Assembly: GCA_905182985.1 (NCBI GenBank)
Contig: CAJJDN010000090.1
Location: forward strand, 355,526 to 419,525
Origin: Paramecium sonneborni
Taxonomy: Eukaryota; Ciliophora; Oligohymenophorea; Peniculida; Parameciidae
DNA length: 64,000 nucleotides
Direction: 5' to 3'
The notes under the pieces were generated by a model. It worked only from the letters and a program-made list of their open reading frames with translations. It made no database searches and was not told the origin of the DNA. A program made the position numbers and the translations under genes. Position 1 is the first letter of the stretch. Every line of letters starts with the position of its first letter. Of this stretch, positions 15,329 to 18,054 are shown piece after piece.

Positions 15329-16696
15329 ATGTTAAATACATCCTAAACTAAAAGTACGACTGAGTCTACAAATTCAATAGTTATTGATAAAAAATACAGC
15401 ATAATCAAAAATATTTACAAGGGGAAATAATATAACATTTATTTAGGTAATGAAAGTTGAATTTAAAAGATAGCTAGCCATCAATATGGAATAGTTAGAG
15501 GATTATAATTAAATGGATTAGAAAGACAAGTTCTATCTAATAAAGATGAAAAAGTAAGAAGAATACCTTTATGATTTAAAGATAAGCTTAATAAAATGAG
15601 ATAATTCCAGAACTGTAATTTTTATAAAGACTGAAAAATGGTATAAATTTATATAATAATGATAGGCAACTGTGTTCCAATTTTAGTTAACTATGGAGAA
15701 TAGATTATAAATGGTTAAAAATACCATTTTTAAATTCTGAAAAGACATGGTCCTTCTATAAAACTAATATATAATTATCTGTCAAAAAATCTTCCTCTTC
15801 CAATAATATGTCTTATAGCAATATAAACTGTATAATAGATCTTAGATTATAGTTAACATGTTTAGAAACTATTCATAAACACTAAATAGTTCATCGAAAC
15901 ATCAGACCTAAGAAACTATTGCTTTCAACCAGTGGTAATGAAATTTTATTAAGTGATTTTAAATTTGCAAGTAAATTTAAGTAATAACATGGATCAATCT
16001 GTTATATGGATAACCATAAATCATTATCAAATAAATAGTTCCTCAATAAATACTCAAGTGTTAGTCAACACCTTCATTAATGTAAAGATACAAATTAATA
16101 AATTAGTTCCAACACCAAAAGATGATCTCGAATCACTTGCTTATATTTTGCTTGTTTATGTAACAAAATCAAAGATCTTTAAAATACAAGCAGATAATAA
16201 AGGATTGAAACTAAAGAAATTGGAAAACATAAAATTATCAATAATTCCTGAAATTACATTTAAATCTGCTCCTATTGAATTTATACATTTTTTAAATTTA
16301 GTTAAGATTAGCAATGCAAATGATTTTCCTTAGGAATATGAGAAATTTAAATAATTATTTCGTAGATTGATTTAAGCAAGTGGATATAATGAAAAAGATT
16401 TATCATACCCTTTATTTCATATATAATATCAAGAATCTCATCCCTAATAATAATAACACTAAACTTAATCTAGTAGATTTAAGAAAACTTTCAATCACAA
16501 ATAAAGTTCTGAATTTATTCAAGAAGAATCAGATGATGAGGAGGTGTCAATATAACAAATTGATATAATAGGAGATGATCGTACTATTGAACATGCAATA
16601 AGATCTGTTAAACCTTAATCATACAAAAAATTATCTACTCTTAATTAACAAAAACCTGGATCATAAATAATGAAACTTAAATTCACTAAAAAATGA
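15329..16696 (+). CDS. casein kinase 1-like pseudokinase
   Basis: 410 residues across six exons; five introns (31, 28, 25, 23 and 28 nt) are needed and give a whole number of codons. CK1 hallmarks are clear: HGPSIKLIYNYLSKNLPL (matches GPSLEDLF...), TIHKHQIVHRNIRPKKLLL, PKDDLESLAYILL (matches RRDDLESLGYVLM), and a C-lobe ending QLFRRLIQASGYNEKDLSYPLF. Key residues are replaced: HRD is HRN (15892-15900), DFG is DFK (15954-15962), and the glycine loop is gone (NIYKGKQYNIYLAI). A Gln/Ser-rich tail follows. Intact splicing argues against a dead gene; a catalytically inactive regulator is more likely. Confidence 0.78.
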
Positions 16697-16771: not shown

Positions 16772-17389
16772 ATGAAATTTTATATAATTTTAAGTTTAGT
16801 AGCAGCAACATTAGCTGGATCTTGCGGTTAAACATGTTGTTAAGATCTAAAGACGAGATCAGCAATGACATATCATTACTATATAAATACAGGTAGATTT
16901 GTTGGTGGTAGTGGTGACTCTGCAATTAAAACATTTGGATATTCAGGATCTGGACAAGTAATTAAATGTAATATTAAAAATACAGTATCGTAATGATCCA
17001 GCATCATAATGCATTAAGAACAAAGGTCCTGCTCCAGCTACAACTTATAAAATAACTTTATGCAAAAATACAATGCATAGTCCTCCTGTTGACAGACCAT
17101 GTTCATTTTGGATTGAAGCAGTAGATGAATCAAAGATGTGTGGTAGAAGTGAAATCTTTATTCACGGTTGTTAATGTTGTACGAATGGAGATTGGACACA
17201 ACCACCTGTTGATGGATGTTCAGCTGGGTATATTTATATTTGATTACATCATATAGATGCGTCATTATTAATGAAGCTAATAGAAAGAAATTAAGAGTTG
17301 GTGATACTATCGTTATTGAAAGCTATGATCCTTTAGGTGAGGAAGCTAAATTCTTAGAAGGCTATACTTAGTTTGTTGAAGAACAATGA
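16772..17389 (+). CDS. secreted DUF2778/Tlde1-like L,D-transpeptidase-fold protein, copy 1
   Basis: 186 residues, introns of 28 and 29 nt. A signal peptide (MKFYIILSLVAATLAGS) precedes a Cys-rich start (CGQTCCQDL). Core motifs match the bacterial DUF2778/Tlde1 family: YSGSGQ, YRNDPASQC, GPAPATTYKI, then GRSEIFIHG with the catalytic-type His (17162-17164) and SAGC with the Cys (17258-17260). Bacterial relatives are YkuD-like enzymes that cut or exchange D-amino acids in peptidoglycan stem peptides, often delivered as type VI effectors. Paramecium has no peptidoglycan, so the target is presumably bacterial prey or symbionts, in the phagosome or outside. Extra cysteines (IHGCQCCTNGDW) suggest disulphides suited to secretion. 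The last intron ends one base before the Cys codon. Tandem with a second copy 53 bases downstream. Confidence 0.8.
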
Positions 17390-17442
17390 AGTATTTCTTA
17401 TAACATTTAACATATTGTTGATCTAATTTATCTATATTATAA

Positions 17443-18054
17443 ATGAAATATTTTCTTGCTCTATTATTTATTGCCATCACCTAAGCTGGAAATTGTGGAT
17501 AAACATGTTGTTAAGATTTACCAACTAGACCTTCAATGACATTCTATTATTACATCAATACAGGAAGATTCTTTGGAGGAAGTGGAGATTCAGCTATTAA
17601 TACTTTTGGTTATTCTGGAGCTGGAAAAGTATACAATCTATATTCTAAATTAGTATAGAAATGATCCTGCAGCCTAATGTTTAAAGAACTAAGGACCAGC
17701 ACCTTCAAATACATATACTATAAAAACTTGTTAAAATACTATGCATAATCCTCCAGTTGATAGACCTTGTTCTTTTTGGATAGATGGTAATGATTCAGAT
17801 AGAATGTGTGGCAGAACAGAAATCATGATTCATGGATGTGCTTGTTGCACACCAAGTGATTGGAGTGTACCACCCATTGATGGATGTTCTGCAGGGTTAT
17901 CATTAAATACTAATTTAGATGTATTATCATTAATGAAGAGAACAGAAAAAAACTAAGAGTTGGAGATACTCTTATTGTTTAAGATTATGATCCATTAGGT
18001 GATAGTATTTAATTAAATGACATCATCATGGAATAAGAAATTATGTATGAATGA
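17443..18054 (+). CDS. secreted DUF2778/Tlde1-like L,D-transpeptidase-fold protein, copy 2
   Basis: 187 residues, introns of 25 and 23 nt at the same two places as in copy 1, so the pair arose by duplication of an intron-bearing gene. Signal peptide MKYFLALLFIAITQAGN. Shared motifs are CGQTCCQDL, NTGRFFGGSGDSAI, YSGAGK, YRNDPAAQC, RTEIMIHG (His at 17831-17833) and SAGC (Cys at 17920-17922), followed by INEENRKKLRVGDTLIV. The tail (DSIQLNDIIMEQEIMYE) differs from copy 1. Catalytic residues are kept, so both copies are likely active. Activity, substrate and location are inferred from the bacterial family, not shown here. Confidence 0.8.

Follow-up and report, generated by a model that had tools for sequence, protein, structure and literature searches.

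Tlde1a of Salmonella (PDB 7uma, 7uo3, 7uo8) belongs to the Pfam family PF10908, which is called DUF2778 in PMC9144972. Its motif residues are H121, S128, G130 and C131, and R115 is part of the exchange pocket; the variants C131A, G130Q and W93A were inactive in assays and R115A had low activity (PMC9638812). Papers are cited here by PMC number. Here we describe two adjacent genes of the ciliate Paramecium sonneborni that encode proteins of this family. They lie in a stretch of 64,000 nucleotides (nt) of contig CAJJDN010000090.1, hereafter the window, and coordinates are window positions unless another contig or locus is named. The two genes probably encode laterally acquired enzymes of the L,D-carboxypeptidase/exchange type that would act on bacterial walls, probably in digestion.

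The family match is far beyond chance. PF10908 (Tlde1_dom) scores 91.6 bits (e-value 6.2e-26) with gene 1 and 94.8 bits (e-value 6.5e-27) with gene 2 against a cut-off of 30.1, and it is the single Pfam match of each protein at e-values up to 1. A preliminary description of this DNA had placed the pair in DUF2778/Tlde1 with an L,D-transpeptidase fold and had proposed a search against DUF2778 and YkuD. The DUF2778 assignment is borne out; the Pfam family of the YkuD-type L,D-transpeptidases (PF03734; Csd6, Pgp2, Bd1075) has no match in either protein at e-values up to 1. The fold, modelled on an orthologue, is predicted to be that of an L,D-transpeptidase, as had been claimed, and its best match among solved structures is Tlde1a. 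His122 and Cys144 both fall inside the fold-matched span and the kept motif, an indirect indication that they do not lie far apart, which the preliminary description had named as a refuting outcome. Tlde1a was reached by fold comparison only, not by sequence. An NCBIfam scan of four proteins gave no match, and 'Tlde1 domain-containing protein' is already the UniRef label on Paramecium proteins. A six-frame search of the genome (91.5 Mb, 289 contigs) with PF10908 matched only gene 1 and gene 2 at e-values ≤ 0.001.

The adjacency of the genes, their five ordered motifs and their extra cysteines had all been described before, and the spliced models (Table 1) agree, with the pair at precisely the span given earlier. 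The two genes share intron positions and phases (0 and 2), and unspliced reading of either meets a TGA soon after the start of intron 1. The window has ciliate-like DNA, with a G+C content of 19-28% and long frames around both genes when TAA and TAG are read as Gln. Both proteins carry YSGxG (57-61), YRNDPAxQC (63-71), GPAP (76-79), R(S/T)xxxIHG (116-123) and SAGC (141-144) in this order, and the TY downstream of GPAP lies within TTY in gene 1 and NTY in gene 2. Each has 12 cysteines at shared positions. The N-terminus is the sole strongly hydrophobic stretch of each protein (best 11-residue Kyte-Doolittle mean 2.59 in gene 1 and 2.51 in gene 2); the signal peptide claimed earlier is thus seen as hydropathy, and its identity as a signal peptide is what we infer from it. 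The proteins are identical at 121 of 186 positions. By the Nei-Gojobori (NG86) method the nonsynonymous rate (dN) is 0.27, the synonymous rate (dS) 1.3 and dN/dS ~0.21, a rough ratio because dS is near saturation, and this divergence points to purifying selection on the protein.

Protein searches returned 35 proteins with a single-sequence query and 117 with a profile query. The latter are six bacterial-like proteins at 27-30% identity to gene 1 and 111 at 41-89%, which we label ciliate-type. An organism name is attached to four of the 111 (Paramecium tetraurelia, P. octaurelia, Tetrahymena utriculariae and Pseudocohnilembus persalinus). Sixty-five cover enough of the domain for an alignment check and 46 do not. 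Gene 1 is matched by P. tetraurelia P0001 (89% identical over 100%), and gene 2 pairs with P. octaurelia P0002 (94% over 133 columns). An SH3-like N-terminal region, apparent by eye in P0032, had no Pfam match and was not used. Outside the ciliate type, relatives were found in bacterial genomes (98, of which 80 are listed) and at nine loci in viral contigs; among the matches listed, the phyla are Pseudomonadota, Acidobacteriota, Verrucomicrobiota and others. A scan of the viral contigs with Tetrahymena P0047 found no close relative. In a phage collection P0047 matched three Erwinia phage records (36% identity, e-value 5e-8), which are of the bacterial type, and the phage protein L012 matched 58 records.

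The active site is conserved across an alignment that holds 67 rows of the ciliate type, the window pair among them, and 93 bacterial/phage rows. The presumed catalytic His is present in every row of both sets and the presumed catalytic Cys in 67/67 and 92/93. H122, S141, G143 and C144 occur in all 67 ciliate-type rows. At least 85% of the rows in both sets keep Y57, G59, G76, P77, P79, Y83, G115, R116, H122, G123, S141, G143, C144, R152 and D159; the column of residue 107 holds Pro at that level in both sets and Ala or Gly in the window genes. The spacing from R116 to H122 equals that from R115 to H121 in Tlde1a.

Going beyond the preliminary description, the two genes are members of a larger clade that is distinguished by a Cys-rich loop at the active site. 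The gap between the catalytic His and Cys is 21 residues in 54 ciliate-type rows, 23 in two and 25 in 11. In the bacterial/phage rows it is 13 in 76, 11 in 14, and 12, 14 and 19 in one each, so that 92/93 span 11-14 and the ciliate-type loop is commonly 8 residues longer. Within it C124, D131, P135, P136 and C140 are invariant (67/67), with C126 in 57/67 and C127 in 60/67. Also invariant are C88, M92, P100, C101 and F103, which the model places on two strands (82-92 and 97-107). C71 and C114 occur together in 26 of the bacterial/phage rows, C114 alone in eight, C71 alone in none and neither of them in 59; this association has a Fisher p of 2e-16, with no correction for kinship. This suggests that a C71-C114 disulfide predates the ciliate type and was already present in some bacterial/phage forms, including L012.

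A loop so lengthened between the catalytic pair, with its five invariant residues, together with the Ala where Tlde1a has His129, is what one might expect if the fold had been kept and the substrate were not peptidoglycan, i.e., if the loop had been refitted to another D-amino acid or peptide such as a component of the ciliate secreted matrix. We consider this improbable. R116, S141 and G143, the equivalents of the pocket and motif residues of Tlde1a, are near-invariant, and one member of the clade carries a module otherwise annotated beside peptidoglycan hydrolases.

That member is P0025 (264 residues), with a Cys-rich module N-terminal to its Tlde1 domain (148-244). A search with residues 17-138 returned 112 proteins including P0025. 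Thirty-one of the other 111 have a precomputed Pfam domain, and all of these are peptidoglycan-hydrolase families: GH25 in 20, VanY-type PF02557 in 10 and NLPC_P60 in one. Four of the 111 are EukProt proteins (one GH25, two PF02557 and one from Ochromonas danica without a recognised domain), and because of these the module is, on sequence match, common to a clade member and to protist wall enzymes. The earlier proposal of secretion to lyse or digest bacteria, helped by this relative whose module also occurs in peptidoglycan hydrolases, is a plausible conjecture that has gained some support. Residues 17-138 of P0025 have no Pfam match themselves and are possibly a peptidoglycan-binding module, a candidate for its own family.

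Other candidate wall enzymes exist in the genome. Single matches, both with in-frame TAA/TAG, were found to Amidase_2 (C155:18158-18574, e-value 5.9e-22) and NLPC_P60 (C21:299112-299384, e-value 5.6e-6). No match was found to GH25, T4-type lysozyme or YkuD (for the last, 0 matches, with the control matching 6/14); introns may hide exon-split matches, so these negatives are no proof of absence. In contrast, GH25 lysozymes are reported among the digestive genes in a Tetrahymena thermophila transcriptome study (PMC7232342).

The ciliate type forms a single group in every tree. One tree, built quickly, took in 160 rows: 65 of the 111 ciliate-type proteins, the two window proteins, 87 of 89 loci (L058 was omitted for a stop and L068 as too short) and the six bacterial-like proteins. 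It splits the ciliate type off by one branch with support 100. A mixture-model tree of 73 rows holds 24 of the 67 ciliate-type rows, nine phage rows and 40 of 84 bacterial rows, the last being every second locus minus three that were long or doubtful, plus four of the six bacterial-like proteins. Here the ciliate-type clade has support 100/100 and the phage protein L012 adjoins it (98/86). A second tree includes six additional phage proteins and 18 rows of the ciliate type; support for the clade is again 100/100 and L012 is nearest (90/80). The stem of the clade is long, at ~1.3 changes per column, and the bacterial sampling rested on one motif pattern. The simplest reading of these topologies is one entry into the ciliate lineage, probably by lateral acquisition from a bacterial or phage-like donor, the latter being no more than a lead. 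The horizontal acquisition proposed in the preliminary description is favored by one eukaryotic clade set against many bacterial and phage lineages.

Since the trees are unrooted, the direction of transfer is unreadable from them, and this would suit a gene of eukaryotic ancestry that ciliates retained while other eukaryotes lost it, bacteria being the recipients. Against such a history, which we regard as very unlikely, relatives are spread over Pseudomonadota, Acidobacteriota, Verrucomicrobiota and phages, and no non-ciliate eukaryote was named in two protein searches, with the limits that P0080 and P0095 come from eukaryote transcriptome sets without an organism label and that P0025 may be from another protist. 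A bacteria-type domain in a eukaryote also raises the question of contamination or an endosymbiont origin. We reject this, with practically no doubt, because of the four short GT-AG introns, the in-frame TAA/TAG codons for Gln and the position of the genes within a block that has a collinear duplicate on a different contig of this genome; the orthologues known from further Paramecium species likewise speak against it. Spliced genes on a eukaryotic chromosome, in a duplicated block and with such orthologues, indicate vertical inheritance since acquisition.

The phage relatives (PHROG 24118, function unknown) include L013:4402-5812, L020:5088-5950 and L114:1-3366. In three loci, three of seven open reading frames tested beside the DUF2778 gene are spanin- or holin-like. 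Both tested neighbours in L013 are spanin-like (e-values 1e-4 to 1e-3). Of the two tested in L020, one is holin-like (e-value 1.5e-5), although it matches best to a family without known function; the three neighbours tested in L012 had no match. In Erwinia phage Y3 an annotated endolysin is found six genes away from the DUF2778 gene. The phage protein is possibly a lysis-linked enzyme. In Burkholderia phage JC1 the DUF2778 protein gp41 is listed outside the lysis module (PMC9144972), an argument against its acting in lysis there. A further relative (38% identity to L012) is gpB, annotated as hypothetical, of a 4.36-kb single-stranded DNA Citromicrobium microvirus (L116:1328-1738), a candidate lysis or wall-entry enzyme of a very small phage.

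Most of the window (408-63999) is collinear with C89:301037-360901 in the same genome. The collinear pieces are 67-90% identical in nucleotides, the longest of them 89-90%, and thus the chromosome block, or the whole genome, was probably duplicated fairly recently. A genome search with the gene 1 protein found one further place, C89:317354-317701, within a decayed third copy. Most of this copy can be aligned to gene 1 (74%), and its 3′ end is closer to gene 2 (82%); its frame is apparently broken, and the active-site His-Gly and loop cysteines are lost. The gene 1-like copy with a gene 2-like end points to a tandem pair that is older than the block duplication and stayed intact in only one block. 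The terms 'ciliate', 'tandem' and 'duplicated' used earlier all hold. The gene directly upstream in the window (15571-16125, + strand) has a stretch that resembles, by eye, a protein-kinase catalytic loop.

For the digestive role favored here, enzyme activity, export and transfer direction are all inferred. The gene products would be cysteine enzymes of the Tlde1-type L,D-transpeptidase fold, either secreted or phagosomal. With the signal peptide removed, a disulfide-rich protein would go to the food vacuole or into the medium. There His122 would activate Cys144, with Ser141 holding it, for attack on the bond that precedes the terminal D-amino acid in the peptidoglycan stem; this D-amino acid would then be released (L,D-carboxypeptidase) or swapped for another (L,D-transpeptidase). 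Such an activity may aid other wall enzymes in dismantling ingested bacteria. The gene would have passed into the ciliate lineage from a bacterial or phage-like source, probably once. It would then have gained the Cys-rich His-Cys loop and a hairpin with an invariant Met, and undergone tandem duplication in Paramecium, apparently before the latest chromosome-block duplication. In a more specific version, which we put forward tentatively and think rather unlikely, a phage-type DUF2778 protein, of a kind that in some phages neighbours spanin- or holin-like genes, was domesticated in an early ciliate, acquiring an export signal and a disulfide-stapled lid on the active site to become a eukaryotic food-vacuole L,D-carboxypeptidase/D-amino-acid exchange enzyme.

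The same enzymes might instead serve in defence against, or control of, intracellular or surface bacteria, e.g., endosymbionts. The bacterial relatives include an antibacterial effector (PMC9638812), and a laterally acquired Trichomonas NlpC/P60 helps that protist outcompete bacteria in mixed culture (PMC6299479). We consider this role unlikely, as no tie between the genes and symbionts was found in this analysis and pairwise dN/dS is without sign of fast change, though single sites could still differ.

Several observations weigh against digestive L,D-carboxypeptidase/exchange enzymes. Among solved structures a phmmer search found no relative (top match complement factor H, e-value 0.098), nor did a profile search (one antibody chain, e-value 0.52). 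The more careful trees are short (121-134 columns) as well as unrooted. The position of Tlde1a H129 is Ala142 in both window genes, and in the 67 ciliate-type rows it is A in 50, E in nine, Q in five, L in two and N in one; His stands there in just 9/93 bacterial/phage rows and is thus not family-defining. In Tlde1a, toxicity to E. coli was lost in every point variant tested other than D40A, and H129A gave half the carboxypeptidase products with full D-Leu exchange (PMC9638812). From this Ala and the behavior of H129A, the ciliate enzymes may be weaker carboxypeptidases that lean to exchange. The Cys-rich loop could alter or restrict the substrate. Leaving out Cys144, 11 of the 12 precursor cysteines remain, an odd number, and the disulfide pattern is therefore ambiguous. 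A hydrophobic N-terminus is absent by a simple test in 19 of the 65 ciliate-type database rows, many of them apparently start-truncated. Lastly, the P0025 module is absent from the Paramecium proteins, and 80/111 proteins with it have no Pfam domain; ten of these were rescanned, giving nothing in nine and a sub-threshold GH25 in one.

Table 1. Features of the tandem Tlde1-domain genes and of the matching decayed copy
Feature	Position	Strand	Remarks
Gene 1	16772-17389	+	Tlde1-domain protein, secreted-looking; spliced translation, table 6, 186 residues, TGA end 17389
Gene 1 exons	16772-16957, 16986-17227, 17257-17389	+	Spliced translation
Gene 1 intron 1	16958-16985	+	28 nt, GT-AG, phase 0; TGA in unspliced frame
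Gene 1 intron 2	17228-17256	+	29 nt, GT-AG, phase 2; splits the Gly codon directly 5′ of the catalytic Cys
Gene 1 probable signal peptide, ~residues 1-16	16772-16819	+	Hydrophobic N-terminus; end estimated by eye
Gene 1 codon of presumed catalytic His122	17163-17165	+	Derived from spliced model; His conserved across alignment
Gene 1 codon of presumed catalytic Cys144	17258-17260	+	Derived from spliced model; Cys conserved across alignment
Intergenic spacer, gene 1/gene 2	17390-17442	.	53 nt
Gene 2, tandem paralogue	17443-18054	+	Spliced translation, 187 residues, TGA end 18054
Gene 2 exons	17443-17628, 17654-17895, 17919-18054	+	Spliced translation
Gene 2 intron 1	17629-17653	+	25 nt, GT-AG, phase 0
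Gene 2 intron 2	17896-17918	+	23 nt, GT-AG, phase 2
Gene 2 probable signal peptide, ~residues 1-16	17443-17490	+	Hydrophobic N-terminus by hydropathy
Gene 2 codon of presumed catalytic His122	17831-17833	+	Derived from spliced model; conserved across alignment
Gene 2 codon of presumed catalytic Cys144	17920-17922	+	Derived from spliced model; conserved across alignment
Decayed third copy	L011:3355-3923 = C89 ~317354-317922		C89 place matching the window pair

Bacterivorous eukaryotes must break peptidoglycan. To our knowledge, eukaryotic toolkits for this consist of glycan hydrolases, amidases and NlpC/P60 peptidases, and we know of no earlier eukaryotic L,D-carboxypeptidase/D-amino-acid exchange enzyme, so that these would be the first. 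If the reading is right, an L,D-transpeptidase-fold clade adds another bond, and possibly D-amino-acid exchange, to eukaryotic peptidoglycan breakdown. It would also offer a case, open to testing, in which a wall enzyme of bacterial or phage descent was turned into a digestive or defensive tool. A literature search found no paper on a Paramecium Tlde1/DUF2778 protein in the searched collection, which most subscription papers lie outside, and a Trichomonas paper (PMC12612818) makes no mention of carboxypeptidase, transpeptidase, ciliate, PF10908 or Tlde1.

Among known systems, Salmonella Tlde1a shares the Pfam family. Unlike it, the window genes have introns and their own signal-like N-terminus, and their proteins have Ala for His129, a His-Cys gap of 21 residues rather than 9, and 12 cysteines, four of them (124, 126, 127 and 140) in the His-Cys loop. 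We know of no type VI secretion system in eukaryotes. The label of type VI secretion effector, raised in the preliminary description, fits some bacterial relatives and is not applied to the window genes, given their own hydrophobic N-terminus and the lack of a His at the H129 position. The phage DUF2778 proteins are among the nearest relatives in sequence outside the ciliate type, with L012 the nearest (35% over 34-169, sharing C71 and C114); they differ in a shorter His-Cys loop without the Cys-rich stretch and, if read from ATG, have no signal peptide. The tick Dae amidases are laterally acquired eukaryotic peptidoglycan hydrolases, and both they and the Trichomonas NlpC/P60 have another fold and cleave another bond than the window enzymes would. 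Both are likewise bacterial-type peptidoglycan enzymes encoded on a eukaryotic chromosome. For the Trichomonas enzyme, activity has been shown (PMC6299479). A laterally acquired wall enzyme in a protist is thus already known, and the novelty here lies in the fold, in the ciliate clade and in its Cys-rich loop at the active site.
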